From assembly GCA_029260055.1 (NCBI GenBank), contig JAJDDX010000313.1:1-39248 (forward strand): a stretch of 39,248 nt of DNA, given 5' to 3'. Both the position numbers and the translations under genes were made by a program. Shown here piece after piece: positions 5,341 through 29,740 of the stretch. Numbering within the stretch: position 1 is the stretch's first letter; each line of letters starts with the position of its first letter. The notes beneath the pieces are model-generated. The model had not been told where the DNA came from. It did no database searches and saw only the letters and a list, made by a program, of their open reading frames with translations. Origin of the DNA: Phycisphaerae bacterium (GTDB lineage Bacteria; Planctomycetota; Phycisphaerae; UBA1845).

Positions 5341-5915
5341 GCCGTTGTGTCGTCCCGCATTTCGCGCCGCAACCACGCGCGCGCCATCTGCCAGTCACCC
5401 GTCACGGTGCGCGGCGAGACCCCGAGAAACTCCGCCACTTCCTTGAGTTCGAGCCCGCCGAAGAACCGTAGCTCGACGATCCTGGCTTGCCGCTCACGCA
5501 GGTGTGCCAGCTTCTCGAGCGCCTCGTCGAGCGCGATCAGGTCGATGTCCCGCTCATCGAGGACGGCAACGTCTTCGTCGAGCCGTACGCGTTCACGGCC
5601 GCCGCCGCGTTTCTGCCTTTGATGCCCCCGGGCGTGGTCAACGAGGATTCGACGGATGGCCTGCGCAGCCACGGCGAAGAAATGGGCCCTGTTCTTCCAT
5701 TCGACGTCTTCTTGCCGAATCAGGCGCACATAGGCGTCGTGAACCAGGGCGGTCGCCTGGAGCGTATGGTCGGGACGCTCCCGGTTCAGGTAGCTCTGCG
5801 CCAGCGCGCGGAGCTCGTCATACACCAGCGGCATGAGGCGCCTCACAGCCGAGTCGTCTCCGTCGCTCGCATCTCGCAGAATTCGCGTCACATCCGCGTC
5901 TTTTGGCCCGCTCAT
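5337..5915 (-). CDS. ECF-family RNA polymerase sigma factor (kinase-associated type)
   Basis: A 192-aa protein when started at ATG 5915 (MSGPKDADV), which has a G-rich leader. The frame is open further upstream, but that extension is not sigma-like and would cross the candidate promoter and the divergent gene. Region 2 covers about 20-95 (YDELRALAQSYL, NRAHFFAVAAQAIRRILVDHAR). Region 4 covers about 130-186 (LRERQARIVELRFFGGL and the helix-turn-helix KEVAEFLGVSPRTVTGDW). Length and sequence fit the TIGR02999-type ECF sigma factors common in Planctomycetota and Acidobacteriota, which typically have no classical anti-sigma gene and sit next to Ser/Thr kinases. The stop overlaps the kinase start, so the two form an operon. 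Target promoters are unknown. Confidence 0.93.
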   Translation of the reverse strand: MSGPKDADVTRILRDASDGDDSAVRRLMPLVYDELRALAQSYLNRERPDHTLQATALVHDAYVRLIRQEDVEWKNRAHFFAVAAQAIRRILVDHARGHQRQKRGGGRERVRLDEDVAVLDERDIDLIALDEALEKLAHLRERQARIVELRFFGGLELKEVAEFLGVSPRTVTGDWQMARAWLRREMRDDTTA

Positions 5916-8242: not shown

Positions 8243-8258
8243 GACGTGTACTGTCACG
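8238..8258. terminator. Short inverted repeat across convergent stops
   Basis: CGTGA (8238-8242) and TCACG (8254-8258) form an inverted repeat spanning the stop codons of two convergent genes. It has only a 5-bp stem and no adjacent T-run, so a bidirectional terminator is possible but weakly supported. Confidence 0.2.
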
Positions 8259-10143
8259 GCTCGCGCCGGGGCCGCCGCTTCTTGTCGAACGGAATCCGCA
8301 GGTGGTATGCGCCGTCCTCGAGGTTGCTCTCGACCGGATAACCGCACTTGTGGAACACGCGCAGCATACCGTGGTTGTCGACGAGCACGTCGGCCGTAAA
8401 GCCAGCGATACCGTTCGATCGTGCGCTGTCCACGGCAGCGTTCATCAGCGTGGTGCCGATCCCCTTGCCCTGCCAATCGTCACGAACGAGAAAGGCGGCG
8501 TCGGCGAAGTTGCTCTTCGGGTCGTTCCGGTAATGAGCGATCGCGATCAGTTCGGCGTCCTCGGTCGCGTCGGTCATCGCGACCAGAGCCATATCCGCGC
8601 GGTAGTCGACGCGAAGCAGCTCCTGGAGCTTCTCATGCGGCATCGACTTGAGCATCTGAAAGAAACGATAGTGAATCGAGTCGTCGGACAGCTTGTAGAA
8701 CAGGTCGCGAACCAACCGCTCGTCGGTCAGCCTCAACGGACGCATGAACACCCGCGTCTCGTCGCTCAGGTCGATCCACTGTTCCAGCTCCTCCGGATAG
8801 ATCGCGGGGTGAATCGGTAGCTCGATCTGGTCGTGATAGATCAACCCTCGCGTTTTCGCCTCCGCGATAAGCCAGGGGCGGAACTTCGGGTGAGCGATTT
8901 GGATCAGTGCCATCGCCCGCTCACGCATCGTCTTTCCGTGCAGGTAGGCCGCCCCGTACTCCGTCACGACGTAGTGGACGTCACCACGGCTGGTCACCAC
9001 CCCGGCGCCCGGCTTGAGCATGGGCACAATCCGTGAGATGGTCTCACCGGCCGCGGTCGACGGCAACGCGATGATCGGCTTGCCCCCCTTGGAGCGTGCG
9101 GCCCCGCGCGTGAAATCCACCTGACCACCGATCCCGCTGTAGAACATGGTCCCCAGCGAATCCGCGCACACCTGCCCGGTCATATCCACCTCAATCGCCG
9201 CGTTGATCGATATCATCTTGTCGTTCTTGGCGATATTGAACGGGTCGTTGACGTACTCGGTCGGGTGGAACACGACCATCGGGTTGTTGTCGATGAAGTC
9301 GTAGAGCTTGCGCGATCCGATCACGAAGCTCGCCACGATCTTACCGCGATGGAGTGTCTTTTCGGCGTTCGTGATGACGCCCTTCTCGACCAGTGGAATC
9401 ACGCCGTCGCTGAACATCTCCGTGTGAATGCCAAGGTCCTTGAACTCCGTGAGGAAGTGCAGCACGGCGTCCGGGATCGTGCCGATTCCGAGTTGCAGCG
9501 TCGCACCGTCTTCGACCAGATTGGCGATATGCCGGCCAATGCGCCGCGACAGCTCGTCCGGCTCGCCCTGCGGCGCTTCCGGCAACGCCACATCGCTCGC
9601 CACGAGATGGTCGATGTCCCGCACGTGAATGAAGCAGTCCCCCAGCACACGCGGCATGCGAGCATTCACCTCGGCAACGACGATTCGAGCGGACTCAGCC
9701 GCCGCTTTCACGATGTCCGTCGACACGCCATAGCTGCAGTAGCCGTGCTCATCCGGCTCGCTCACCGAGATCAATGCCACGTCGATGACCGCGCGCCCGC
9801 TTCGGAAGAGCGCCGGGATCTCGGAAAGGAAGATCGGGGTGTAGTCGGCCCTGCCGGCTGCTACGGCCTCCCGTGTGTTCGGGCCGATGAAGTACGCGTT
9901 GTGTCGAAAACGATCGCCCAGCGGTGCCCTGGCATAGGGCGCCGTCCCAAGCGTCATGATGTGGACGATCTCCGTGTCGCTCAGCTCCCTGCGCTCGGCA
10001 AGTGCCGTCACGAGCGTCTCGGGCTCCGCCACACCCGAGCCCACGAACACACGATGACCGGGCCGGACGCACGCGACGCCCTCCTGCGCGGTGGCGATCT
10101 TGTCCTTGAACCGTTCCGTCCAATGCGCCACGGTCTGTTTCAT
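8254..10143 (-). CDS. Acetyl-CoA hydrolase/CoA-transferase fused to a GNAT acetyltransferase
   Basis: A 629-aa protein starting at ATG 10143 with AAGGAG nine bases upstream. Residues about 1-435 form an acetyl-CoA hydrolase/4-hydroxybutyrate CoA-transferase-type domain, with GIGTIPDAV at 219-227, the probable catalytic Glu242 in GIHTEMFSDG, and the C-terminal YSGIGGQVDFTRGA segment. Residues about 462-620 form a GNAT domain with the acetyl-CoA loop VRDDWQGKGIG (553-563). Fusions of these two domains are a known architecture. The enzyme probably releases or transfers CoA from acetyl-CoA or a related acyl-CoA. The GNAT part could acetylate the enzyme itself or another protein and so sense acetyl-CoA, which is inference. 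A sigma-54-like promoter lies upstream, linking it to the nearby NtrC-type regulator. Confidence 0.92.
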   Translation of the reverse strand: MKQTVAHWTERFKDKIATAQEGVACVRPGHRVFVGSGVAEPETLVTALAERRELSDTEIVHIMTLGTAPYARAPLGDRFRHNAYFIGPNTREAVAAGRADYTPIFLSEIPALFRSGRAVIDVALISVSEPDEHGYCSYGVSTDIVKAAAESARIVVAEVNARMPRVLGDCFIHVRDIDHLVASDVALPEAPQGEPDELSRRIGRHIANLVEDGATLQLGIGTIPDAVLHFLTEFKDLGIHTEMFSDGVIPLVEKGVITNAEKTLHRGKIVASFVIGSRKLYDFIDNNPMVVFHPTEYVNDPFNIAKNDKMISINAAIEVDMTGQVCADSLGTMFYSGIGGQVDFTRGAARSKGGKPIIALPSTAAGETISRIVPMLKPGAGVVTSRGDVHYVVTEYGAAYLHGKTMRERAMALIQIAHPKFRPWLIAEAKTRGLIYHDQIELPIHPAIYPEELEQWIDLSDETRVFMRPLRLTDERLVRDLFYKLSDDSIHYRFFQMLKSMPHEKLQELLRVDYRADMALVAMTDATEDAELIAIAHYRNDPKSNFADAAFLVRDDWQGKGIGTTLMNAAVDSARSNGIAGFTADVLVDNHGMLRVFHKCGYPVESNLEDGAYHLRIPFDKKRRPRREP

Positions 10144-10219
10144 CGCTCGAGACTCCTTCAGGCCCGCTATGTGCCGCGGCTCGCGCGATGCGACCCCACA
10201 TTGCGGACACCATGAGCCA

Positions 10220-10235
10220 TGCAAGACCATGGCCA
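10220..10235 (-). promoter_or_regulatory. Candidate sigma-54 promoter for the CoA-transferase/GNAT gene
   Basis: On the minus strand the sequence TGGCCATGGTCTTGCA matches the sigma-54 consensus (TGGCACG-N4-TTGCW) in TGGC and in all of TTGCA, with the exact GG-N10-GC spacing. The implied start is near 10210, giving a leader of about 67 nt that contains the AAGGAG site. A sigma-54 activator is encoded about 2 kb away. Confidence 0.5.
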
Positions 10236-10327
10236 TTCTGCGCGCACCCCGAAAACGGGAGCACGTTCGAAAACCGGCAGATTGGCGAAGGCGTATGGGA
10301 CGAAGTGCGAACCGGAATCGCGCGGCG

Positions 10328-10735
10328 TTAACCGACCGCGGATGGGTTGATCCCGAGCGCTTCCGCGAGCTTCGACAGTTCGAATGGCTTCTCGATGAAC
10401 TTGGGTTGGGCGGCCGCGTCGTCTGTGGGACCCACTCCCGTCCGCACGATTCGCGTGGACGGATTCCGGGCAAGTGCGCGATCCTCGACCGCAGTGGATG
10501 CTCCGTCAGCCAGGCGCTCGGCCACAATGACGGCGTCCACCGTGTGCCCTTCCAACATGCGATCCGCGCCGGTCCGCGAATCGACCTGGAGGACATCACA
10601 CCATCGGCTGAGGTAGGTCACGATCGACCAACGGAGAAGCGCTTCGGGCTCGACGACAAGCACTCGCGGACGACCACCATCGGGTGTCGCCGATCCGCCA
10701 GTGCGATCGCTATCGCCGTCCGTTTGCTTTTGCAT
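10328..10735 (-). CDS. Small pseudo-receiver (degenerate CheY-like) protein
   Basis: This 135-aa protein starts at ATG 10735, with GGAGG seven bases upstream. After a 22-residue polar leader it has a receiver-like fold: RPRVLVVEPEALLRWSIVTYL (strand 1 and helix 1), VDAVIVAERLADG (strand 3) and KFIEKPFELSKLAEAL (strand 5 and helix 5). Two hallmarks are missing. The acidic pair after strand 1 is EP instead of ED or DD, and the position of the phospho-acceptor Asp in 'VIVAERLAD' is Ala. The conserved Lys of strand 5 (EKPF) is kept. The LLRWS segment resembles LIRWS of the NtrC-type regulator encoded nearby, so it may be a duplicated and decayed receiver acting without phosphorylation. No output domain follows. 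A sigma-54-like element precedes it. Confidence 0.75.
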   Translation of the reverse strand: MQKQTDGDSDRTGGSATPDGGRPRVLVVEPEALLRWSIVTYLSRWCDVLQVDSRTGADRMLEGHTVDAVIVAERLADGASTAVEDRALARNPSTRIVRTGVGPTDDAAAQPKFIEKPFELSKLAEALGINPSAVG

Positions 10736-10764
10736 GGTTGACCTCCGCGCTTCCACGGCTATCA

Positions 10765-10780
10765 AGCACAACGCATGCCA
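10765..10780 (-). promoter_or_regulatory. Candidate sigma-54 promoter for the pseudo-receiver gene
   Basis: On the minus strand TGGCATGCGTTGTGCT matches ten of the twelve defined positions of TGGCACG-N4-TTGCW and keeps GG-N10-GC. The predicted start, near 10754, leaves about 19 nt of leader containing GGAGG. Confidence 0.45.
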
Positions 10781-11030
10781 CAGTTCAAGCGATCCAGTCC
10801 ATTGAAGCAGTAACGGCACGAACCGCGTTGCAGCGGCCTTCCGCGCCGAACCGGGACGGGCCGGGCTGACGGTCCCTCCCACTCGGACCCGTGGTATTTG
10901 GCACAACCGTCGTGCGAAATGCCCCGAAGGCACGCGCATCGCTCGAGGCGGGCCCAGTGCGCCAAGCTCGTCGGGCCGGACACGGCGAACATATGCGGCT
11001 CGGCGGATGCGCGGCCTTTGGACTGAACTT

Positions 11031-11084
11031 GCTCGAAATAGCGAGCCCGGACACCACACCTTGGGCTCGCTGTCCGCGCGAGCC
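11031..11084. promoter_or_regulatory. Inverted-repeat array, candidate operator for the globin kinase operon
   Basis: Four alternating half-sites occur in 54 bp: GCTCG (11031-11035), GCGAGCCC (11041-11048), GGGCTCGC (11063-11070) and GCGAGCC (11078-11084). GCGAGCCC and GGGCTCGC are a perfect 8-bp inverted repeat 14 bp apart, and GGCTCGC-N7-GCGAGCC is a perfect 7-bp one. The right part overlaps the expected -35 position, so a regulator bound here would block or modulate transcription. The binding protein is unknown; autoregulation by the adjacent response regulator is possible. Confidence 0.5.
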
Positions 11085-11098
11085 ACAATGGATATAAT
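11070..11098 (+). promoter_or_regulatory. Candidate sigma-70 promoter giving a near-leaderless kinase mRNA
   Basis: A perfect TATAAT lies at 11093-11098. Seventeen bases upstream sits a poor -35 (CTGTCC, 11070-11075), inside the inverted-repeat array. The start would fall close to 11105, which is the A of the kinase ATG, so the transcript would be leaderless or nearly so. There is no Shine-Dalgarno sequence before that ATG, in agreement. Confidence 0.45.
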
Positions 11099-11104
11099 GC
11101 CCGC

Positions 11105-12313
11105 ATGCCGGATTCGCGTTTCTCAGACATGATGAAGCTGATCGGCTTCGACGCCCGTGACGCCGCCCTCCTGGGGCAACAGGCGGACACGATCGAGCCG
11201 TGGATACCGTCCATCGTGGATCATTTCTACGAAGCTTTGCTGCAGCGGCCGGACGCCCGCGCTATTTTCACAGGGGGCGAGCCGCAAATCGAACGCCTCC
11301 GGCATCTCTTGGCCGATTGGCTGCGAGGGCTATTCAGCGGCACCTATGACAGCGCCTACTACGAAAAACGGCTCGCCATCGGGGCCGCCCACGTCCGCGT
11401 GGCCCTGCCGCAGCAATACATGATCCTGGGAATCGAGTTGATCCGGCAGGAACTGGAGACCGCCCTCCGCTCGGCCGACGTGGCGGAGACGGACCTGACC
11501 CTCCGATCTCTCGACAAGCTCCTCACGCTCGAACTCGCGATCATGCTCGAGAGTTACAAGGAAGGGTTCGCCAAGCGAATCCGCCGATCTGAGCGTGACG
11601 CGCTCGAGGAGAAGCTCACCCGCGCCGAGCACTTGGCTGAGATCGGGCAGTTGGCTGCCTCGCTCGCGCACGAAATCAAGAACCCGCTCGCCGGGATCAG
11701 CGGGGCTATCGAGGTGATCGGCGACGGTATGCCGGCCGGCAACCCCCACCGCCAGATCGTCAAGGAGATCCTCGGGCAGATCAGTCGCCTCGACGCGGCC
11801 GTCAAGGACTTGTTGGTGTACGCACGCCCGGTCAAACCGCGCGCCGCGCAGATCGTGCTTCACGACGCGGTCGTCCGGGTGCTGATGCTTCTCCGTGAAG
11901 AGCCCGAAATTCAGCGCGTCCGCGTGGACTACGAGCCGCCGGCCGGCGACTCGACCGTTCACGCCGACGACAGCCACATGGAACAACTGTTGATGAACCT
12001 CATCATCAACGCGGCGCATGCGTCGCAGGACGGTCAGGTCATCAAGGTCGAGGTCATTCCGAACGGCGAGTCTGTTCGGCTGGCTGTGACGGACTGGGGA
12101 GCCGGCATGCCGCCCCACGTCCGCGAGCGCGCTTTCGAAGCGTTTTTCACCACGAAGGCGAAAGGAACGGGACTCGGGCTTGCCATCTGCCGTCGACTCG
12201 TCGAGGCTACGGATGGCACTATCGAATTGCAGAGCGAACTCGGCGAAGGCACGAAGGTCATGGCGAGCCTACCTCGCACAGGCCCCACAGAGGACAAAAG
12301 AACACAACGATGA
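11105..12313 (+). CDS. Globin-coupled histidine kinase (protoglobin sensor)
   Basis: This 402-aa protein begins with a protoglobin-type sensor domain (about 1-160) that contains the 'KRLAIGAAHVRVALPQQYMILG' region; His96 is the expected proximal haem ligand. A linker helix leads into a HisKA/HATPase module: H-box SLAHEIKNPL with phospho-accepting His189, N-box LLMNLIINAAHAS (295-307), G1 DWGAGMPP (330-337) and G2 KGTGLGLA (353-360). No membrane segment is present, so it should act in the cytoplasm. Family knowledge predicts haem-based sensing of O2, NO or CO that controls autophosphorylation. The stop overlaps the start of the NtrC-type regulator, its probable partner. No ribosome-binding site precedes the ATG; M9 or M10 are alternative starts. 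Confidence 0.9.
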   Translation: MPDSRFSDMMKLIGFDARDAALLGQQADTIEPWIPSIVDHFYEALLQRPDARAIFTGGEPQIERLRHLLADWLRGLFSGTYDSAYYEKRLAIGAAHVRVALPQQYMILGIELIRQELETALRSADVAETDLTLRSLDKLLTLELAIMLESYKEGFAKRIRRSERDALEEKLTRAEHLAEIGQLAASLAHEIKNPLAGISGAIEVIGDGMPAGNPHRQIVKEILGQISRLDAAVKDLLVYARPVKPRAAQIVLHDAVVRVLMLLREEPEIQRVRVDYEPPAGDSTVHADDSHMEQLLMNLIINAAHASQDGQVIKVEVIPNGESVRLAVTDWGAGMPPHVRERAFEAFFTTKAKGTGLGLAICRRLVEATDGTIELQSELGEGTKVMASLPRTGPTEDKRTQR

Positions 12314-13671
12314 TGGTACGCGTGTTGATTATCGAGGACGAGCACCTGATCCGGTGGTCGCTCAGACAAAAGTTCGAGGCCAGGGGCTATCAGGTCGCCG
12401 AGTCTGAAACGGGCGCCGCGGGGCTTGCCGCCCTCGAGGAAGAGCAGTTCGACCTTCTCATGCTCGATTACAAGCTTCCGGATATGACCGGCTTGGACGT
12501 GTTGGGCAAGATCCGTGAGAAGGACAAGGATATCGTCGTCATTATGATGACCGCCTTCTCGAGCATCGAAAGCGCCGTCGATGCCATGAAACTGGGCGCA
12601 TACGACTACGTCACGAAGCCCTTCGACATGGATCAGCTCCTGCGTACCACCGGGAAAGCCCTGGAGACCACGAAGCTGCGTCGCGAAGTGCGCGAGCTGC
12701 GACGGCACATGCAGCAGACGTTCGGTTTCGATCGCATCATCGGCGACTCGCCGCTCATGGCCGAACTGTACGGTCTCCTCGATCGTGTCGCCATGAGCAG
12801 TTCGTCGACGCTGTTTCTGCGCGGCGAATCCGGCACGGGCAAGGACTTGTTCGCCCGCATCATCCACTACAACTCGGACCGCGCGGGCCGGCCTTTCATG
12901 AACATCACCTGCACCGCGCTGTCCGAGACGCTACTGGAAAGCGAACTCTTCGGCCACGAGAAAGGTGCCTTTACGGACGCCAAGAGCGCCAAGCGCGGGC
13001 TCTTCGAGTTGTCCGACGGCGGCACCATCTTCCTAGACGAAGTCGGCGACATGCCGCTGAACCTCCAAGCGAAGCTGCTTCGCTTCCTGGAGGAGCGCAC
13101 CTTCCGCCGGGTCGGCGGAACCACGGAAATCTCCGTAGATGTCAGGCTGATCGCAGCCACGAACCGCGACATCGAGCGTGCCATTGAAGAGGGCGCTTTC
13201 CGCGGCGATCTGATGTACCGCCTCAATGTCATACCGATCGACCTTCCGCCGGTGCGGGAGCGCGGCAACGACATCAAGCTTCTTGCCCAGTACTTCGTGG
13301 ATCAATTCGCCAAGGACTTCAAGAAGCCGGTCACGGACATCACCAAGGGCGCCTACGACAAGCTGTTCGACTACGCGTGGCCCGGAAACGTGCGGGAGCT
13401 GCGCAACGTCATGGAACGGGCCGTTCTTCTCTGCGACAAGGACGCAATCGGGCCGGAAGATATCATGATCGGTCGCGCGGGCTACGCGAGCCCCGCCAAC
13501 CCGGCCACGTTCGTGCTGCCGGCCGACGGCATCAACATCCACGAGCTCGAAAACGATCTGCTCCGCCAAGCGCTGGCTCGGGCCGGTAACAACAAGACGC
13601 AGGCGGCCAAACTGCTGCGTCTGAGCCGTGACGCTTTTCGGTATCGCCTCGAGAAACTCGGGTTACTCTAG
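12310..13671 (+). CDS. NtrC-family sigma-54-dependent response regulator
   Basis: A 453-aa protein with three domains. The receiver domain (about 3-118) has the acidic pair ED (9-10), phospho-acceptor Asp53 in MLDYKLPD, Thr81 and Lys103. The AAA+ sigma-54 interaction domain (about 142-375) has Walker A GESGTGKD (172-179), the sigma-54-contacting loop GAFTDA (219-224) and Walker B GGTIFLDE (237-244). A Fis-type helix-turn-helix sits at the C-terminus (NNKTQAAKLLRLSRDAFRYR). The start ATG overlaps the kinase stop, so the pair is co-translated. It should hydrolyse ATP to open sigma-54 promoters when phosphorylated. Three sigma-54-like promoters nearby are candidate targets, including one for nifJ directly downstream. 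GAFTDA is a known variant of GAFTGA. Confidence 0.95.
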   Translation: MMVRVLIIEDEHLIRWSLRQKFEARGYQVAESETGAAGLAALEEEQFDLLMLDYKLPDMTGLDVLGKIREKDKDIVVIMMTAFSSIESAVDAMKLGAYDYVTKPFDMDQLLRTTGKALETTKLRREVRELRRHMQQTFGFDRIIGDSPLMAELYGLLDRVAMSSSSTLFLRGESGTGKDLFARIIHYNSDRAGRPFMNITCTALSETLLESELFGHEKGAFTDAKSAKRGLFELSDGGTIFLDEVGDMPLNLQAKLLRFLEERTFRRVGGTTEISVDVRLIAATNRDIERAIEEGAFRGDLMYRLNVIPIDLPPVRERGNDIKLLAQYFVDQFAKDFKKPVTDITKGAYDKLFDYAWPGNVRELRNVMERAVLLCDKDAIGPEDIMIGRAGYASPANPATFVLPADGINIHELENDLLRQALARAGNNKTQAAKLLRLSRDAFRYRLEKLGLL

Positions 13672-13913
13672 AGTTTCCCTCCGGGCGAAAAAGCAATATT
13701 TTATCGGACGTTCCAATGGGGTATTTAACACTGATCATGGATGATTTAGCGCGAAGATGTCTCGGGGATGCTGGCGAGCCCCCTCGCCCGCTGCCGAAGA
13801 AGACCCAGGTTCACGATGACTTGGCCTGCGGGAATAGCTTTTCCGCGTCGGGGCGCCGGGTGCGCACACCTGAGTCCGGCACCGTGAGGTCCACGTCGGA
13901 TCTCACCGGCGCT

Positions 13914-13925
13914 CGAGCATGCTCG
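13914..13925. promoter_or_regulatory. Perfect 12-bp palindrome, candidate NtrC-type enhancer site
   Basis: CGAGCATGCTCG is fully palindromic and is centred about 100 bp upstream of the start predicted from the sigma-54-like element. That is the usual position for an upstream activator sequence bound by an NtrC-type dimer. The regulator encoded immediately upstream is the obvious candidate to bind it. Confidence 0.45.
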
Positions 13926-13993
13926 CGCGCGGGTGAAGCGGACACGCGGGCAGCCGACACTTGGCAGCCCCGGGGCGGTCGCCAGGGCAGCGG

Positions 13994-14009
13994 TGGAACG
14001 CTTCTTGCC
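13994..14009 (+). promoter_or_regulatory. Candidate sigma-54 promoter of nifJ
   Basis: TGGAACGCTTCTTGCC matches ten of twelve defined positions of the sigma-54 consensus TGGCACG-N4-TTGCW, with exact GG-N10-GC spacing. The implied start is near 14020, about 75 nt before the nifJ ATG. Confidence 0.55.
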
Positions 14010-14094
14010 GTGCTCTTATCTGGGCCCGTTCCTCCACCGTGGAACCGAACGGTTTTTCCCCGCCCCAGTACAAGCGGGAGTTAGGTCAAAGGAA

Positions 14095-17000
14095 ATGGAA
14101 AACGCGGAGCAGGCGACATCTATGCCTCGACAGAAAATCACCATCGAAGGCAACGAGGCGGCCGCCTACGTAGCTTACCAGTGCAGCGACAACGCGGCGA
14201 TTTATCCCATCACGCCGAGTTCCGGGATGGGCGAATGGGCGGATCAGTGGAGCGCCGAGGGCAAGCCGAACATCTGGGGCACCGTGCCTCACGTCATCGA
14301 GATGCAGAGCGAAGGCGGAGCGGCCGGCGCCGTGCACGGCGCCCTGCAGACAGGCGCGCTGGCCACGACGTTCACCGCGTCGCAAGGCCTGCTCCTGATG
14401 ATCCCGAACATGTACAAGATTGCCGGCGAACTGACGGCGGCGGTCTTCCACGTCTCGGCGCGCGCGATCGCCACACATGCGCTGTCGATCTTCGGCGATC
14501 ACAGTGACGTGATGGCGGCACGTAGCACGGGGTTCGCCTTTCTCGCCGCCGGAAGCGTCCAGGAAGTCATGGACCTCGCCACGGTGTCCCACGCGGCCAC
14601 GCTCAAGGCACGCGTGCCGTTCGTTCACTTCTTCGACGGTTTCCGAACATCGCACGAAGTGCTCAAGATCGAGGCGCTGACGCAAGACGACCTTCGAGCC
14701 ATGATCGACAACGACCTGGTGCTCGCCCATCGGGCGCGTGCCATGAACCCGGAGAACCCGGTCGTACGCGGCACGGCACAGAATCCGGATGTGTTCTTCC
14801 AGGCGCGTGAGGCCGTCAACCCCTACTACGACGCCTGCCCGGGCATCGTCCAGGAGATGATGGACCGGTTCGGCAAGCTCGTCGGGCGCCAGTACCACCT
14901 GTTCGACTACGTCGGCCACCCCGAGGCGGACCGCGTCATCATCGCTATGGGCTCCGGCGCGGAGGCCGTCCACGAGACCGTCGACCACCTGAATGCCGGC
15001 GGCGAGAAGGTCGGCCTTGTCAAGGTGCGATTGTACCGCCCGTTCGATAGTGAGCGTTTCATCACGGCGCTGCCGAAAAGCGCGCGTGTCGTCACGGTAC
15101 TCGATCGGACGAAGGAACCCGGCGCGACGGGCGAGCCACTCTATCAGGACGTGGTGACCGCGATGATGGAGCACCACGCGTCCGGCGGCAACGGCTTCGC
15201 GAAACTGCCACGCGTCATCGGCGGGCGCTACGGCCTGTCGTCGAAGGAGTTCAACGCGGCGATGGTCAAGGGTGTCTTCGATGAGATGACCAAAGACGCT
15301 CCCAAGAACCATTTCGTCGTCGGCATCAACGATGACGTGACGAACAACTCGATCGATTATGCCCCCGGTTTTACCAGCGAAGACGACGACACGGTGCGAG
15401 CCGTCTTCTTCGGCCTCGGTTCGGACGGCACGGTCGGGGCGAACAAGAACTCGATCAAGATCATCGGTGAGGAGACGGACAACTACGCCCAGGGCTACTT
15501 CGTCTACGACTCGAAGAAGGCCGGCTCGGTCACGGTATCCCACCTCCGCTTCGGCAAGAAACCGATTCGCTCGAGCTACCTGATCCACAAAGCGAGCTTC
15601 GTGGCGTGCCATCAGGCGGCGCTGATCGAACAGATCGACGTGCTGGATCTCGCGGACCCTGGAGCCATCTTCCTGCTCAATACGCATGCTGCGGCGGACA
15701 GCGCGTTCGACACGCTACCGCGCGAGGTACAGCAGCAGATCATCGACAAGGGGATCAAGCTCTACGTCATCGACGCCTACAAGGTAGCCGGCGAACTTGG
15801 CCTGGGCGCGCGGATCAACACGATCATGCAGACCTGCTTCTTTGCGATCTCCGGGGTCCTCCCGCGTGATGAGGCGATCGAGAAGATCAAAGCGGCCATT
15901 CAGAAGACATACGGCAAGAAGGGTGAAGCGGTCGTCAAGAGCAACTTCGCCGCTGTGGACAAGGCGCTTGAGAACTTGCACGAGGCGGCCGTGGGCGGCA
16001 GCGTCACCTCGCAGCGCTGCCGAGCGGCACACGTGTCACAGGACGCGCCGGAATTCGTCCGCAACGTAACGGCCGAGATGATCGCGGGCCGCGGCGACGG
16101 ACTGCCTGTCAGCAGCATGCCGGCCGATGGCACTTTCCCGACCGGCACGACCAAGTGGGAGAAGCGCAACATCGGGCTCGATATTCCAGTCTGGGATCCT
16201 GGTACGTGCATCCAGTGCAACAAGTGTGCCCTGGTCTGCCCTCACGCCGCTATCCGCGCGAGCGCGTTCGAGCCGGCTTCACTCGAGAACGCACCCGCGA
16301 CCTTCAAGTCGATCGACGCCCGCGGCGGCGAGTACAAGGGCCTCAAGTTCACGATCCAAGTCGCGCCGGAAGACTGCACCGGTTGCAGCCTGTGCGTCGA
16401 GGCGTGCCCGGCCAAGAACAAGAAGGAGGTCCGGCTCAAGGCGATCAATATGGCGCCGCAAGCGCCGGTCCGCGACACCGAACGAGAGAACTACGCCTTC
16501 TTCCTCGATATCCCGGAGCTCGATCGAACGGCTCATAAGATCGGCTCGGTCAAGGGCTCGCAATTCGCCCTGCCGCTGTTCGAGTATTCCGGCGCGTGCG
16601 TGGGCTGCGGCGAGACGCCCTACGTCAAGCTCGTCAGCCAGTTGTTCGGCGATCGTGCGATCATCGGCAATGCCACGGGCTGCTCGTCGATCTACGGCGG
16701 CAACCTCCCGACGACGCCGTGGACGACCAACGCCGACGGACGCGGACCGACCTGGTCCAACTCACTCTTCGAAGACAACGCGGAGTTCGGACTAGGCTTC
16801 CGCCTCTCGCTGGACAAGCAGAACGAATACGCACGGGAACTGCTCGAGAAGCTCAGCGCAGAGATCGGTCCGGATCTGGTTCGGCCGCTACTCGAGTGCA
16901 AACCGACCGATGAAGCGGGAATCCGCACTCAGCGGCAGTTCGTGGCCCAACTCAAGGAGCGCTTGCCCAAGATCGGCGCGCCGGATGCCGCCAACCTGAT

Positions 17001-17727
17001 GAGCGTGGCGGACTCCTTGCTCAAACGGAGCGTCTGGATCATGGGTGGCGACGGTTGGGCGTACGACATCGGCTACGGCGGGCTGGACCACGTGCTCGCT
17101 TCGGGGCGCAACGTCAACGTGCTCGTGCTCGACACCGAGGTCTACTCGAACACCGGCGGACAGATGTCCAAAGCCACGCCGCTCGGTGCCGTCGCCAAGT
17201 TCGCCGCCGCCGGTAAGGCGGTGCAGAAGAAGGACCTTGGCATGATGGCGGTGGCCTACGGGCACGTCTACGTCGCCCAGATCGCGATGGGCTCGTCGGA
17301 CAACCAATGTGTCAAAGCCTTCGTCGAGGCGGAGAGCTACGACGGACCATCCTTGATCATCGCCTACAGCCACTGCATCGCCCACGGCATCAACATGCGC
17401 AAGGGCCTGAGCCACCAGAAGGCGGCCGTCGATTCAGGGCATTGGCCGCTCTATCGATTCGACCCGCGGCGCACGCTGGCCGGCGAGAACCCGATGCAGC
17501 TCGACTCGAAACCGCCGAAGCTTCCGCTTCGGACGTACATGGAGAGTGAGAACCGCTTCGCCATGCTTCTCAAAAGCCAACCGCAGCGTGCGGAGGCTCT
17601 GGTGCGTCAGGCGCAGCAAGCGGCAACGGCTCGGTATCAGGAGTACGCCCGGCTGGCCGCAGCGGACGGCAATGAACAGAAGAAGGACACCGGCGCGGGT
17701 CGACAAACGGTCGGCACCGGTGCCTAG
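14095..17727 (+). CDS. nifJ: Pyruvate:ferredoxin (flavodoxin) oxidoreductase
   Basis: A 1210-aa single-chain PFOR, close to the usual length of about 1,170-1,200. I placed the start at ATG 14095, preceded by AAAGGA; ATG 14122 is an alternative, and the GTG frame upstream lacks homologous sequence. The order of domains is canonical: pyrimidine-binding domain with YPITPSSGMGEWAD, a CoA-binding middle, then a two-[4Fe-4S] ferredoxin domain (Cys705/708/711/715 and Cys761/764/767/771). A third cluster lies in the TPP domain (Cys835, Cys838, Cys863 and a late Cys in NQCVKAF), with the TPP/Mg motif GDGWAYDIGYGGLDH near 985. It converts pyruvate plus CoA to acetyl-CoA, CO2 and reduced ferredoxin, and is oxygen-sensitive. 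Its location beside a globin-sensor kinase and behind a sigma-54-like promoter suggests control by oxygen or redox state. Confidence 0.97.
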   Translation: MENAEQATSMPRQKITIEGNEAAAYVAYQCSDNAAIYPITPSSGMGEWADQWSAEGKPNIWGTVPHVIEMQSEGGAAGAVHGALQTGALATTFTASQGLLLMIPNMYKIAGELTAAVFHVSARAIATHALSIFGDHSDVMAARSTGFAFLAAGSVQEVMDLATVSHAATLKARVPFVHFFDGFRTSHEVLKIEALTQDDLRAMIDNDLVLAHRARAMNPENPVVRGTAQNPDVFFQAREAVNPYYDACPGIVQEMMDRFGKLVGRQYHLFDYVGHPEADRVIIAMGSGAEAVHETVDHLNAGGEKVGLVKVRLYRPFDSERFITALPKSARVVTVLDRTKEPGATGEPLYQDVVTAMMEHHASGGNGFAKLPRVIGGRYGLSSKEFNAAMVKGVFDEMTKDAPKNHFVVGINDDVTNNSIDYAPGFTSEDDDTVRAVFFGLGSDGTVGANKNSIKIIGEETDNYAQGYFVYDSKKAGSVTVSHLRFGKKPIRSSYLIHKASFVACHQAALIEQIDVLDLADPGAIFLLNTHAAADSAFDTLPREVQQQIIDKGIKLYVIDAYKVAGELGLGARINTIMQTCFFAISGVLPRDEAIEKIKAAIQKTYGKKGEAVVKSNFAAVDKALENLHEAAVGGSVTSQRCRAAHVSQDAPEFVRNVTAEMIAGRGDGLPVSSMPADGTFPTGTTKWEKRNIGLDIPVWDPGTCIQCNKCALVCPHAAIRASAFEPASLENAPATFKSIDARGGEYKGLKFTIQVAPEDCTGCSLCVEACPAKNKKEVRLKAINMAPQAPVRDTERENYAFFLDIPELDRTAHKIGSVKGSQFALPLFEYSGACVGCGETPYVKLVSQLFGDRAIIGNATGCSSIYGGNLPTTPWTTNADGRGPTWSNSLFEDNAEFGLGFRLSLDKQNEYARELLEKLSAEIGPDLVRPLLECKPTDEAGIRTQRQFVAQLKERLPKIGAPDAANLMSVADSLLKRSVWIMGGDGWAYDIGYGGLDHVLASGRNVNVLVLDTEVYSNTGGQMSKATPLGAVAKFAAAGKAVQKKDLGMMAVAYGHVYVAQIAMGSSDNQCVKAFVEAESYDGPSLIIAYSHCIAHGINMRKGLSHQKAAVDSGHWPLYRFDPRRTLAGENPMQLDSKPPKLPLRTYMESENRFAMLLKSQPQRAEALVRQAQQAATARYQEYARLAAADGNEQKKDTGAGRQTVGTGA

Positions 17728-17745
17728 AATACAATAGCAGGATTG

Positions 17746-18738
17746 ATGATGGATCTATCAACCGAATACCTCGGCATGAAGCTCAAGAACCCGCTGGTGG
17801 CGGGGCCCTCCCCGATTACGCGGGACCTGGATAACATTCGCGCGCTCGAGGACGCCGGCGTCGGCGCCGTCGTCCTGAACTCGCTGTTCGAGGAAGAGAT
17901 CGCCCACGGACACGGCGCCCACGATCACTTTCTCGACCACAGTACCGAGTCGCACGCGGAGTCCACGTCGTATGCGCCGGCGCTCGATTACACGCCGGTG
18001 GGCACTGAGCCTTACCTCGAACACCTCCGCGCCGTGAAGCAGGCGGTCGGCATTCCGGTGTTCGCGAGCCTCAACGGCTGCACACGCGGCGGCTGGGTCG
18101 AGTTCGCATCGGAACTCGAGCAGGCCGGCGCCGACGGACTCGAACTGAACGTCTATCAAGTCGCCACCGACCCGGAGGTAAGCCCGGCCGACGTGGAGAA
18201 CAACTACGCGGAGATCCTGTCGGCCGTCTCGAAGGCCGTCCGGATCCCCGTAGCCATGAAGCTCGCCCCTTACTTCAGTTCGCTGCCGCACATGGCCAAA
18301 CGTCTGGAGGAATGCGGGGCGGCGGGCTTCGTCTTGTTCAACCGTTTCTACCAGCCGGACATCGATATCGACACGCTTGAAGCGGTCCCCAACCTGTCGC
18401 TCAGCGCGCCTCACGAGGTGCGTCTGCCGCTAAGGTGGATTGCCATTCTGGATCCGGTGGTGAAGGCATCGCTGGCGGCCAGCACTGCGGTCTACACCTG
18501 GGCGGAAGTGGTCAAGCTGCTGATGGTCGGAGCCGACGTGACACAGCTTTGCGCCACGCTCCTGCGTAACGGTGCGCCCGTGGTACCGAAGCTCCTCGAG
18601 GGTCTGACGGCCTGGATGGAGGAGCACGAGTACGAGAGCGTCACCCAACTCCAGGGCTGCATGAATCACCGCACCACGAGCGATCCCGGTGCGTTCGAGC
18701 GCGCTAACTACTTGCGCGCGTTGCAGTCGTACGCCTGA
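17746..18738 (+). CDS. Dihydroorotate dehydrogenase-like flavoprotein linked to nifJ
   Basis: A 330-aa TIM-barrel protein starting at ATG 17746, 18 bp after nifJ, so very likely in the same operon; ATG 17749 is an alternative start. It matches the dihydroorotate dehydrogenase-like family (LSTEYLGMKLKNPLVAGPSP, ADGLELNVYQV, VGADVTQLCATLLRNG as the phosphate/FMN-binding end). The 'ELNxSCPN' segment of true DHODs, which precedes the catalytic Cys or Ser, is replaced by ELNVYQVATDPE, so it should not be pyrimidine-biosynthetic. Genes of this type recur next to nifJ in anaerobes; the substrate is unknown. An FMN oxidoreductase coupled to ferredoxin or PFOR is a reasonable guess. Confidence 0.9.
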   Translation: MMDLSTEYLGMKLKNPLVAGPSPITRDLDNIRALEDAGVGAVVLNSLFEEEIAHGHGAHDHFLDHSTESHAESTSYAPALDYTPVGTEPYLEHLRAVKQAVGIPVFASLNGCTRGGWVEFASELEQAGADGLELNVYQVATDPEVSPADVENNYAEILSAVSKAVRIPVAMKLAPYFSSLPHMAKRLEECGAAGFVLFNRFYQPDIDIDTLEAVPNLSLSAPHEVRLPLRWIAILDPVVKASLAASTAVYTWAEVVKLLMVGADVTQLCATLLRNGAPVVPKLLEGLTAWMEEHEYESVTQLQGCMNHRTTSDPGAFERANYLRALQSYA

Positions 18739-18831
18739 CCCCAGGCGTCGACACCTAACGTTTTGCCGACCCGGTGGCATCCGGTCGCTCGCGGCGTTCC
18801 TGCGAATCGCACGAATGCAAAGGAGGCGACC

Positions 18832-19554
18832 ATGCCCGGCCAATCAACGACCCGCGACCCCGCACTCACCAGAATCGTCGAACGCCAGATGCGCAACTGG
18901 GAGCTGGCGCGTACACAGCACCCGACGGACGCCCGGCAAGAACCGGCCGAAGTCGCCGAATTCATCGCCGTATCCCGCCAAGTGGGAGCCGGCGGCGCCG
19001 AAGTCGCCGCGATGCTCGGCGAAAGGCTCGGGTGGCCCGTGTTTGACAAGACCATTCTCCAGGTCATGGCCGGTACCGACGAGATCAGGCGAAAGCTCTA
19101 CGATTCAATGGACGAACGTGACATTGGGTGGTTTGAGGAGGCCCTGAGAGCCTTCGCCGATCCGGCGTTTGTCAAGAATGACTACTTCCACAGGTTGGTG
19201 GAAACGGTCCTCTTTATCGCGAGAAAGAGCCCGGCAGTCTTTCTCGGGCGTGCGGTCGACCTCATTCTACCGAGACAGGCCGGGTTCCGGGTGCGACTTG
19301 TGGCCCCACTTGACAATAGGTTAAGTAACTTTACACGTGAATTCGACGTCTCCGGCGACGAAGCAAGGCAGCAGATTCCCCAGCTCGACAGCCAACGCGC
19401 CGAGTTCACTCGCAAGCACTTTGCCACCGAACCGGACGATCCGCAGCGGTATGACCTCATTGTCAACATGGCGAGTTTCGAGCCTTCCGACGCCGCAGAG
19501 CTGATCTTCTCGGCCCGCGCGAAGCTGAGGAGGTTAAGTCCCGACACTGCCTGA
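18832..19554 (+). CDS. Cytidylate kinase-like P-loop protein
   Basis: A 240-aa protein with a strong AAAGGAGG site six bases before ATG 18832, which fixes the start. It belongs to the cytidylate kinase-like family: SRQVGAGGAEVAAMLGERLG at about residues 47-66 carries the modified P-loop (GxGGxE in place of GxxxxGKT), and FDKTIL follows as in CMP kinases. The FLGRAVDLILP and VRLVAPLDNR segments match the nucleotide-binding and lid region. Family members are not proven CMP kinases and many are of unknown function. It lies 93 bp downstream of the DHOD-like gene on the same strand and may be the last gene of the nifJ transcription unit, though its own good ribosome-binding site permits independent expression. 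Confidence 0.85.
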   Translation: MPGQSTTRDPALTRIVERQMRNWELARTQHPTDARQEPAEVAEFIAVSRQVGAGGAEVAAMLGERLGWPVFDKTILQVMAGTDEIRRKLYDSMDERDIGWFEEALRAFADPAFVKNDYFHRLVETVLFIARKSPAVFLGRAVDLILPRQAGFRVRLVAPLDNRLSNFTREFDVSGDEARQQIPQLDSQRAEFTRKHFATEPDDPQRYDLIVNMASFEPSDAAELIFSARAKLRRLSPDTA

Positions 19555-19560
19555 GCGGCT

Positions 19561-19597
19561 TCCGCCGACGCACGCTCACTTCAATACGCTCGGCGGA
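19561..19597 (+). terminator. Hairpin after the cytidylate kinase-like gene
   Basis: TCCGCCGA (19561-19568) and TCGGCGGA (19590-19597) are a perfect 8-bp inverted repeat with a 21-nt loop, just after the stop codon. No T-run follows, so it may stabilise the 3' end or act with Rho rather than as an intrinsic terminator. Confidence 0.35.
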
Positions 19598-20021
19598 GTA
19601 GTCTCGGCGCGTCGTTCTTGAGAAGAGATTCCCACAAACGGCAAGCCCAAGCGCCCGGGACTCGTGTCAATGACTGTCGTCAAAAGACGTCGCCGAGCGC
19701 AGCGGCTCGAGTTCCGTCCGATCGCCGGAGCCAAGTCTCGAACCGTTTTTGCTCGCTGGCGGCCATGTGCGGTTTGGCACGCCGCTGGCGGGAATCCCCC
19801 AGGGCAGGTGCCCGGTTGGACCTCACGGGGTACCGGCAACGCGTCCTGTGACCGCCCGGCGCCATTCCCGCTCATGGCATGGAACTTGCCTTTGAATCTT
19901 GTGCTTGTAAGAATCGGGAAGGGTACCGGAGACTGTAACCCGAACGAGATGTATGCAGGGCTGGAGGTCTTGCCGTCGCGGCGAAAGTGTCGCTGCAATT
20001 CCCGCCCTGACAACGGAAACT

Positions 20022-20107
20022 GAGTCGCGTGCGCCAGTGGGTTAACCCCCTTCCGACTTCCCTCTCCTCCGGCCCGAAACGGGAGGGAACCCCTGGCGCC
20101 GCGGCTC
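20022..20107. repeat. Hairpin repeat unit, copy 1
   Basis: Copy 1 of an 86-87 bp unit. Its ends (GAGTCGCG and CGCGGCTC) and next inner arms (CGCCAGTGGGTT and AACCCCTGGCG) are inverted repeats, and the centre holds TTCCCTCTCC...GGCCCGAA, which is identical over 21 nt in all three copies. The inner stem is CCCG-AAA-CGGG. Confidence 0.8.
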
Positions 20108-20170
20108 TTCAATAAACTGGGCAAGGACGCGACCCGAATCGGACGTTGGGTCTCGTTCCGCCGAATCAAC

Positions 20171-20257
20171 GAGTCGCTGACGCCAGGGGAACAATTCCCT
20201 TCCGATTTCCCTCTCCTCCGGCCCGAACACGGAAGGGACCCCCTGGCGTTGCGGCCC
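20171..20257. repeat. Hairpin repeat unit, copy 2
   Basis: Copy 2 begins 149 bp after copy 1. Its arms CGCCAGGGG (20181-20189) and CCCCTGGCG (20240-20248) are a perfect 9-bp inverted repeat, with the shared 21-nt core between them. Confidence 0.8.
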
Positions 20258-20329
20258 TTGATCTTCGAGGACCAATCAGGTAGTTTATCAGGTAACTTAA
20301 GAATCGACCCCCAATTGGGAAGAACCAAA

Positions 20330-20416
20330 GGGTCGCGAACGTCAGCGGGATCATCCCCTCCCGAGTTCCCTCTCCTCCGGCCCGAATACGGGAGGGAGCC
20401 GCTGGTGTCGCGACCC
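20330..20416. repeat. Hairpin repeat unit, copy 3, with T-run
   Basis: Copy 3 begins 159 bp after copy 2. Its outer arms GGGTCGCGA and TCGCGACCC are a perfect 9-bp inverted repeat and the inner hairpin is CCCG-AATA-CGGG (20381-20392). It is followed by a T-rich run (20417-20428, TCCTTCTTTTTT), so on the plus strand this copy looks like an intrinsic terminator. Confidence 0.8.
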
Positions 20417-20494
20417 TCCTTCTTTTTTACTGATGCAAGAGAGGCGAGTTCCGGCAGCGGCTTGCCGGCTTACTCGCGGACCGTCGAGTGCTTC

Positions 20495-20523
20495 TTGCGC
20501 TTCGGCGCCATCCTTCGTATACT
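20495..20523 (+). promoter_or_regulatory. Candidate sigma-70 promoter of the hemerythrin gene
   Basis: TTGCGC (20495-20500) and TATACT (20518-20523) are separated by 17 nt. The predicted start near 20530 leaves a leader of about 60 nt ending in AGGAG before the ATG. Confidence 0.5.
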
Positions 20524-20590
20524 TGCGGCAGCATCGGGAACGCCCTCGGGGCGCGGGCTTGGACGTGGTTGAACCTACCAGGAGAACGGC

Positions 20591-21043
20591 ATGGACACGG
20601 CCGAGTTTGCCAGACGCATACGGGACGAGCACGAGCAGGTCAACGAATTGGCGGAAGCGTTACGGACGCAGACAGCCGTCGTTCCGCGCGCCGGCACGGA
20701 GCACTGGCTTCGCCGATTGAAGGACCGTTTCGAACACTTCCGCGCTCATCAATACAAACACATGGCCCTCGAGGAGCAGGAGGGCTACATGACCTTGGTC
20801 GTCGAGCGCCGTCCCACGTTGTCAGCGCAAGTGGAGCACCTGAAGCATGAGCACCGCCAGTTCGCGCACCTCATGGATCGAATCCACGAGACGCTCGAAG
20901 TCCTCGAACCGACCGACGCGCTGGTGGCGTTCGATTGCTGCCGCCGAGTCGACCAGTTGCTATCGTATATCGATCGCCACGAGAATGACGAGAACTTGCT
21001 GATGACGTACGTATTCACACAGGACATGGGCGCGCACGACTGA
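20591..21043 (+). CDS. Hemerythrin-like HHE-domain protein
   Basis: A 150-aa all-helical protein with AGGAG seven bases before ATG 20591. Candidate diiron ligands are spaced as in hemerythrin-like HHE proteins: His14 (RDEHEQV), His49/His53 (FEHFRAHQ), His57 with Glu61 (HMALEE), His86/His88 (LKHEHRQ) and His130 with Glu134 (DRHENDENLL). Such proteins bind O2 or respond to nitrosative and oxidative stress; this one has no attached output domain or signal peptide, so it acts in the cytoplasm. It lies downstream of the oxygen-sensitive PFOR cluster but behind its own promoter and the repeat block. O2 scavenging or repair of iron clusters is inferred, not shown. Confidence 0.87.
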   Translation: MDTAEFARRIRDEHEQVNELAEALRTQTAVVPRAGTEHWLRRLKDRFEHFRAHQYKHMALEEQEGYMTLVVERRPTLSAQVEHLKHEHRQFAHLMDRIHETLEVLEPTDALVAFDCCRRVDQLLSYIDRHENDENLLMTYVFTQDMGAHD

Positions 21044-29666: not shown

Positions 29667-29740
29667 GCGCCGGTAGCTCAGGTGGATAGAGCATCGGATT
29701 TCTAATCCGAATGTCGCAGGTTCGAGTCCTGCCCGGCGCG
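29667..29740 (+). tRNA. trnR: tRNA-Arg, anticodon UCU
   Basis: Folds as a standard 74-nt tRNA: acceptor GCGCCGG pairs with CCGGCGC, discriminator G, D-loop with AGGTGG, anticodon stem TCGGA/TCCGA with loop TTTCTAA (anticodon TCT), and T-arm GCAGG-TTCGAGT-CCTGC. CCA is not encoded. It reads AGA codons. A truncated integrase lies just downstream, as in elements that insert into tRNA 3' ends. Confidence 0.96.

Follow-up and report, generated by a model that had tools for sequence, protein, structure and literature searches.

The 39,248-nucleotide (nt) contig JAJDDX010000313.1 of a Phycisphaerae bacterium (assembly GCA_029260055.1), which we refer to as the window, encodes a protoglobin-coupled histidine kinase (gHK) and, directly behind it, an NtrC-type sigma-54 activator (NtrC). 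It also carries, further downstream, three tandem RNA hairpins that follow a sigma-54 promoter and a tandem palindromic enhancer. We consider it likely, at a probability of roughly 0.8, that this locus is the core of a sigma-54 regulon responsive to oxygen or another haem ligand, in which gHK and NtrC switch on psREC (an atypical receiver) or CBS-domain genes, the RNAs and, in relatives, the kinase locus itself. A preliminary description of the window had proposed such a regulon around the genes of the acetyl-CoA node. In outline that regulon holds up, and NmpRSTU of Myxococcus xanthus is a named system related to it; its strongest new part is the family of small RNAs (sRNAs). The main point overlooked in that description is a fourth sigma-54 site followed by the three hairpins.

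Hairpin RNAs behind sigma-54 promoters

Three direct repeats of 103 nt lie in the 1-kb gap 5' of the hemerythrin gene; they fold as long hairpins (z -4.3 to -6.2) and are 62-78% identical to the reference copy. The region is laid out as follows:

19765-19802, no strand assigned: tandem enhancer pair upstream of the RNA array, 20-bp spacing, summed score 19.9
19875-19890 (+): sigma-54 promoter of the RNA array, TGGCATGGAACTTGCC, position weight matrix (PWM) score 14.9, predicted start ~19901
20019-20112 (+): RNA hairpin copy 1 (repeat, fold and covariance model)
20168-20262 (+): RNA hairpin copy 2 (repeat, fold and covariance model)
20327-20421 (+): RNA hairpin copy 3, then a terminator-like T-run at 20423-20428
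20495-20523 (+): sigma-70-like promoter TTGCGC-17-TATACT between the RNA terminator and the hemerythrin gene, by consensus match only
20591-21043 (+): hemerythrin-like protein (PF01814)

A model built from the three window copies (R1) found matches in 27 of 60 genomes and model R2 in 47, with one to three copies in each; both counts include the window's own genome, where R2 recovers this array and one weak match only. An alignment of 25 copies made by MAFFT without reference to structure (A3) supports 18 base pairs, 16 of which change on both sides. In this alignment 94.2% of the cells are paired, as against 82.0% in shuffles (none of 500 as high, nor with as many two-sided changes) and 37-57% in slid controls, and the count of further pair types was as high in 6 of 500 shuffles. 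The stems covary freely, while the CU-rich loop of each hairpin is nearly invariant: the columns T-C-C-G-x-C-C-C-G-A do not vary across the 25 copies, the loop runs into CCGGCCCGAA, and the window motif reads CUCUCCUCCGGCCCGAA.

The family has a narrow distribution. In a class sample of 298 genomes, comprising 65 members of the window's order within Phycisphaerae and 233 others, R2 matches 46 order members and two of the others; these two (E ~9e-4), which have neither a sigma-54 site nor an enhancer pair, are probably chance matches. A phylum-wide search under stricter filters matched 2 of 246 genomes, namely the window's own and one weak case. At the gathering threshold, Rfam matched only a tRNA in the whole window; on the RNA region at E <= 10 it gave three sub-gathering matches (E 1.6-9.8, hence none at E <= 1), and on 11 relative loci at E <= 1 four sub-gathering matches, one of which, mir-427 (E 0.11), lies antisense to an RNA copy. 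These RNAs are apparently an undescribed, order-specific family of small hairpin RNAs. As a side observation, one RNA copy together with its 30-nt 3' flank is letter-identical in two genomes assigned to different families (locus L370 of genome G540 and L371 of G502; G and L numbers are our own), which suggests that one of the two assemblies is contaminated.

The promoters were assessed on 65 sense copies, six antisense copies among 71 matches having been left out. A sigma-54 site scoring >= 10 lies within 300 nt upstream on the same strand of 50 of them (41 distinct promoters). The corresponding counts are 4 of 65 downstream, 13 upstream on the opposite strand (several of these being divergent promoters) and one downstream on the opposite strand, and such a site occurs in 5.65% of 4000 random windows. 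A T-run closes 41 of the 65 copies, compared with 5.9% by chance. In genomes used for no model, the promoter was recovered at 14 of 23 copies and the promoter with an enhancer pair at 9, although these 23 copies cannot be counted as independent, since several come from congeners of training genomes, some copies occur in both G540 and G545, and G502 has one sequence in the very form found in G540.

The globin kinase, its NtrC partner and a shared enhancer

An unsupervised search of the 41 RNA-promoter upstream regions returned the palindrome TGNGnnAWWTnnCNCA, usually doubled at about 21 bp, with a spacing of exactly 21 in 31 of the 59 enhancer pairs that have a nearby sigma-54 site. A separate de novo search of the gHK upstream regions led to the same matrix (r = 0.98 at zero shift). 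Applied back to the RNAs, the gHK-derived matrix (site >= 10) marks 25 of 35 RNA promoters outside gHK loci, as against 3.7-4.4% of random 250-mers. Of 50 gHK loci, 22 have an enhancer pair in the 600 bp upstream of the kinase gene, as do 5 of 14 held-out gHK upstream regions, whereas elsewhere in the same loci such pairs occur at 0.016 per 600 bp; of the 21 pairs in those 769 kb, 10 stand at RNA, nifJ, POR or HypD promoters. Only 4 of 129 other sigma-54-like sites have a pair, and the background from other taxa (79 loci, 1.25 Mb) yielded five pairs at threshold 18. The kinase locus of the window reads:

10328-10735 (-): psREC, atypical stand-alone receiver domain (family profile comparison)
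10765-10780 (-): sigma-54 promoter of psREC, TGGCATGCGTTGTGCT, PWM score 15.1
10889-10927, no strand assigned: tandem enhancer pair between psREC and gHK, 21-bp spacing, summed score 24.4
11105-12313 (+): gHK, protoglobin-coupled histidine kinase (Protoglobin 7.4e-34, HisKA and HATPase_c)
12310-13671 (+): NtrC-type sigma-54 activator (Response_reg, Sigma54_activat and Fis-type HTH, HTH_8)

The next-best pairs of the window score 16.1 (4888-4925) and 13.9 (13716-13754); the former falls within a minus-strand reading frame of 955 amino acids (2509-5376) and is probably due to chance.

The kinase is present (E <= 1e-60) in 58 of the 65 order members, own genome included, and in one of the 233 others, two of the 58 (G037, G045) matching by the kinase part only and one (G009) partially. 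It adjoins NtrC in 48 of 49 fetched relative loci, and in the window the two reading frames overlap by 4 bp, which bears out the overlap claimed before. The nearest named relative among at least 80 related loci is Phycisphaerae bacterium OFTM250; the other 79 are mostly kinase-domain matches from other taxa and served as background only. The RNA accompanies the kinase in 43 of the 51 gHK-bearing genomes of the 60-genome set, compared with four of nine without gHK (Fisher p = 0.018, relatedness ignored). It lies within 10 kb of gHK in the window's own genome, in G002, G003, G015, G029 and G033 (G003 and G033 being congeneric), and in G529, a congener of G029; in G003, G015, G029 and G033 it stands directly 3' of the NtrC gene.

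gHK has the architecture of a globin-coupled histidine kinase, with an N-terminal protoglobin domain fused to HisKA-HATPase_c, and the best match of its sensor globin (residues 2-154) in the PDB is such a kinase (5ohe, 5ohf and 6otd; E 6e-22), which we take to be AfGcHK of Anaeromyxobacter sp. Fw109-5. The candidate haem ligand His96, presumably the proximal one as in AfGcHK, and the candidate phospho-acceptor His189 are both conserved in all 17 aligned proteins. A TATAAT hexamer at 11093-11098 ends 6 nt 5' of the gHK start codon, a proximity which suggests that gHK may also have a leaderless sigma-70 transcript besides any sigma-54 control.

The divergent neighbour psREC has no Pfam match at E <= 0.001, and its family profile aligns with the NtrC receiver at an hhalign probability of 97.3%. 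Its acidic pocket reads mostly EP(D/E), and the phospho-acceptor position is Asp in 17 of 18 aligned family members and Glu in the window protein, so that the combination of acidic pocket and phospho-acceptor Asp of a canonical receiver is not present. By analogy with NmpT, psREC, which resembles NtrC's own receiver, could be a phospho-sink or competitor.

The acetyl-CoA genes and candidate regulon members

The gene families named in the preliminary description, viz., gHK, NtrC, pyruvate:ferredoxin oxidoreductase (PFOR), the acetyl-CoA fusion, psREC and hemerythrin, were all recovered by Pfam and NCBIfam or by profile comparison. The hemerythrin gene does follow, with dihydroorotate-dehydrogenase-like and cytidylate-kinase-like genes intervening after nifJ. 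The remaining features are:

8254-10143 (-): acetyl-CoA hydrolase/transferase-GNAT fusion (AcetylCoA_hydro, AcetylCoA_hyd_C and GNAT; Pfam/NCBIfam)
10220-10235 (-): sigma-54-like element 5' of the fusion, TGGCCATGGTCTTGCA, PWM score 10.9
13994-14009 (+): sigma-54 promoter of nifJ, TGGAACGCTTCTTGCC, PWM score 12.3
14095-17727 (+): nifJ, pyruvate:ferredoxin (flavodoxin) oxidoreductase (TIGR02176)
17746-18738 (+): dihydroorotate-dehydrogenase-like protein, 3' of nifJ (NF005741, above cut-off)
18763-19554 (+): cytidylate-kinase-like protein (CMK), start uncertain (PF13189)

The nifJ product scores 1854 bits against TIGR02176 (cut-off 911) and is a PFOR of the NifJ type. The fusion reaches 315.8 against TIGR03948 (butyryl-CoA:acetate CoA-transferase), short of the equivalog cut-off of 674.8; matches to it at E <= 1e-100 are found in 26 of 40 genomes, own included. 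The dihydroorotate-dehydrogenase-like gene recurs in 5 and the cytidylate-kinase-like gene in 7 of 49 gHK loci of relatives, and the gene order as a whole, whose conservation had been proposed as a check, is not kept. A tRNA gene lies at 29667-29740 (Rfam, 71.7 bits).

The window was said to hold three GG-N10-GC elements, upstream of nifJ, the fusion and psREC. All three exist, with scores of 12.3, 10.9 and 15.1, but their motif is not above chance: the window contains 13 sigma-54 sites scoring >= 10, compared with 8.3 +/- 3.2 in first-order Markov sequences. We therefore rejected motif matches within the window as evidence by themselves, and the comparison with relatives had to decide. It favours two of the three, the nifJ and psREC sites being credible because they are conserved. 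For nifJ (28 matches minus four partial ones), 18 of 24 upstream regions, own included, have a sigma-54 site scoring >= 10, the one in G002 being weak and at -497. For the fusion (31 matches minus one without a locus), any sigma-54 site is found in 17 of 30, several of them far upstream, and the element is weak and poorly conserved. A 34-bp near-palindrome (TCACC..GGTGA, with the centre CGAGCATGCTCG) at 13903-13936, some 57 bp 5' of the -24 element of nifJ, could serve another regulator as its site.

The group has all the components expected of a sigma-54 regulon: rpoN, on which the earlier proposal had made itself depend and which has one match in the window's own genome, -24/-12 promoters, an NtrC-type AAA+ activator and upstream enhancers. 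In relatives, enhancer pairs with a sigma-54 site, for some of the genes from a scan confined to pairs >= 17 with a site >= 11, precede gHK itself (L019, L021, L036, L038, L041, L043, L047, L055, L058), psREC (e.g. L022, L023, L036, L038, L040 and L042, besides the window), CBS-domain genes and RNA genes. They also stand 5' of nifJ in G011 and G050, of a POR gamma/delta-type gene in G013 and G053, of the fusion in G022, of CMK in G057, of HypD in G016 and of a cytochrome c gene in G047; in G034 and G004 the fusion lies behind a CBS gene so equipped. The POR gamma/delta-type gene, at L040:8359-9291(-) and L041:822-1751(+), is apparently part of a separate-subunit 2-oxoacid:ferredoxin oxidoreductase, and the L040 pair (34.8) is the strongest found. 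G013, in which no NifJ match was obtained at E 1e-200, may rely on such a separate-subunit POR in place of NifJ.

These relatives, in which nifJ, POR or the fusion carries an enhancer with a sigma-54 site, tie the acetyl-CoA node to the regulon in the group. The more specific circuit of the preliminary description, in which gHK and NtrC directly control nifJ and the fusion of their own genome through the three elements, also draws on the conserved nifJ promoter and is possible but doubtful. The window has no enhancer pair >= 15 within 500 bp upstream of either gene, the pair of 13.9 at 13716-13754 being a weak one, and a pair with a sigma-54 site was found at just 3 of 24 nifJ and 1 of 30 fusion upstream regions. 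What recurs is the regulon of the globin kinase and NtrC with its tandem enhancer, and direct control of nifJ and the fusion in the window's own genome is not supported.

The proposed circuit, its rivals and known systems

Under the reading that we prefer, gHK would phosphorylate the NtrC-type regulator encoded directly 3' of it. Proteins of the NtrC type, once phosphorylated, form oligomers on paired sites and remodel the sigma-54 polymerase. We infer that this NtrC binds the two TGNGnnAWWTnnCNCA palindromes, set at about 21 bp, and opens the sigma-54 promoters that lie ~40-230 bp further downstream. The direct targets with the best support would be the order-specific RNAs, the gene divergent from gHK (psREC in the window, in relatives often a CBS-domain gene) and, in several relatives, gHK itself, while PFOR/POR, acetyl-CoA fusion, hydrogenase-maturation and cytochrome genes would join the regulon in some relatives. 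The array of the window would yield a transcript of ~530 nt with three hairpins, ending at the T-run 5' of the hemerythrin gene. The sign of the response can be argued in two ways. The kinase is seemingly coupled directly to NtrC, so that oxygen would activate the regulon if the sign were that of AfGcHK; the nature of the targets (PFOR/POR, HypD and hemerythrin) points to low oxygen as the activating condition. For M. xanthus, the view in PMC11841059 is that NmpU works when oxygen is present and then holds NmpS, and hence NmpR, in the off state; an NmpR target rises in hypoxia.

The RNAs most likely act in trans, since a nearly invariant CU-rich loop sits on freely covarying stems: by analogy with the alpha-r14 RNAs, the loop would pair with mRNA translation-start regions or block them. 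Perhaps the RNAs titrate or mimic the ribosomal anti-Shine-Dalgarno sequence, or bind a dedicated protein. That an order-wide family of multi-hairpin sRNAs with a nearly invariant CUCUCCUCCGGCCCGAA-type loop, placed under a haem-globin oxygen sensor via sigma-54, serves an oxic/anoxic switch of Planctomycetota as its post-transcriptional arm, acting in trans, is in our estimate an even bet.

Several observations weigh against this picture. No conserved mRNA target emerged from the loop-complement search or the duplex energies. The complement of 12 loop bases has 121 matches in 40 genomes, as against 61 for the reversed control, and 28 of the 121 are the RNA genes themselves; duplex energies with the start regions of psREC, gHK, NtrC, nifJ, fusion, CMK, hemerythrin and dihydroorotate-dehydrogenase-like orthologues have family mean z values of -0.84 to 0.16 relative to a mononucleotide-shuffle control. 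The loop drifts in part of the order, with UUCGG for UCCGG in family f4, and its core pattern is unmatched in 8 of 55 loci. A sigma-54 site is absent at 15 of the 65 copies, and among the six held-out copies of G540 and G545 only one has such a site, a weak one. As noted above, an enhancer pair was found upstream of gHK in only 22 of 50 cases, and in 5 of 14 from held-out genomes. In the window's own genome the best match of the tandem model R3 is the psREC site, itself one of its 36 training rows, and this was the sole match at E < 1 when 150 of 1982 first-look candidates were scored. Lastly, an RNA match is absent from 8 of the 51 gHK genomes, and four of the seven order members of the class sample without gHK keep the RNA (G039, G389, G511, G523), no orthologous NtrC being found in any of them (best <= 43% identity, or none at E 1e-100). 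Three of these four, G039, G389 and G511, have no sigma-54 site at the RNA, which fits a loss of control and also means that the RNA can persist without it; G523 keeps such a site.

A further point of this kind opens a rival reading, in which the hairpins, transcribed from the sigma-54 promoter, serve in cis as leaders or attenuators of the downstream gene and are not independent sRNAs. In 18 of 55 RNA loci (L197-L200, L202, L203, L205-L209, L213, L219, L220, L224, L227, L230 and L232; by tblastn, six checked by NCBIfam), the NAD+ synthase gene nadE follows the RNA on its strand at a distance of 42-585 nt, so that a cis role is possible there. The hemerythrin gene stands behind the RNA in three loci (the window, G014 and G019), and the RNA ends in a terminator-like hairpin with a T-run. 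However, the other 34 loci have neither gene within 1.5 kb behind the RNA (some contigs end early), the RNA adjoins the 3' end of the NtrC gene in the four genomes named above, and the window hemerythrin gene has a sigma-70-like promoter of its own after the T-run, if the consensus match is taken at face value. Moreover, what is conserved among the tandem copies is a single loop, not an alternative structure, and on balance we regard a general cis role as unlikely.

It is also improbable, and somewhat more so, that a different NtrC paralogue is the main activator at the enhancer shared by the RNAs and the gHK locus, gHK and NtrC themselves being just a target. Paralogues at 40-45% identity do exist in these genomes, and the RNAs that survive without gHK, including the one in G523 with its sigma-54 site, could be read in this way. 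Yet the enhancer is concentrated immediately upstream of gHK, gHK and the RNA have the same order-level distribution, and in G389, G511 and G523, which are devoid of gHK and a close NtrC, no enhancer pair is found at the RNA. An explanation of the repeats as REP-like palindromes or as a mobile element with a chance promoter match, which three similar tandem copies might suggest, is largely refuted by their low copy number, their covarying stems in 47 of 60 genomes and upstream sigma-54 sites far above chance, and is very improbable.

Among known systems, the preferred regulon is closest to NmpRSTU of M. xanthus, a named globin-kinase/NtrC-like sigma-54 oxygen regulon (PMC11841059; PMC6211767), so that the earlier statement that no named system with this exact arrangement was known calls for correction. 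The two share a protoglobin histidine kinase at the top and an NtrC-like sigma-54 activator in one locus, paired palindromic enhancers with GCG...CGC-type half-sites, autoregulation, a receiver-only protein nearby (NmpT there), and CBS-domain and hemerythrin genes in the regulon; a supplementary figure legend also places NmpU/NmpT homologues in Planctomycetes. They differ in that a hybrid kinase, NmpS, stands between sensor and regulator in M. xanthus, whereas here the kinase gene overlaps the NtrC gene and no NmpS-like second histidine kinase was found among the 8 window proteins scanned. The enhancer is GCGCA-N5-TGCGC there and TGCGnnAWWTnnCGCA here, 1 bp shorter and with an A/T core. PMC11841059 nowhere uses the terms 'sRNA', 'small RNA' or 'noncoding', and its sections 16 and 22 do not name PFOR. 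AfGcHK, the best structural match to the sensor globin, differs in its partner, its homologue set having a two-receiver protein (PMC6211767) where the adjacent partner here is NtrC.

For the RNAs, the literature matches listed contain neither an sRNA already described from Phycisphaerae nor a case of an sRNA controlled by a globin two-component system. Sigma-54-dependent sRNAs of the Qrr and GlmY-GlmZ type are likewise switched on by an NtrC-family activator. They belong to another host group and signal, and were compared by sequence through Rfam only. In form, the closest parallel is the alpha-r14/NfeR1 family of Rhizobiales, which, according to PMC10746234, shares three hairpins with an ultraconserved unpaired CU-rich anti-Shine-Dalgarno motif on variable stems; it differs in the motif itself (CCUCCUCCC there, CUCUCCUCCGGCCCGAA in the window) and in its -35/-10-type promoter. 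Should our reading be right, both structure and promoter would define this RNA family, for which there would be a candidate regulator and signal as well as a defined enhancer, and exact sequences would be available for testing the control of RNA by oxygen. It raises the concrete question of what binds a loop that is nearly invariant across the order while its stems drift. It would also extend the globin-kinase/NtrC oxygen regulon of myxobacteria to another phylum, and link it there to PFOR/POR and acetyl-CoA metabolism.

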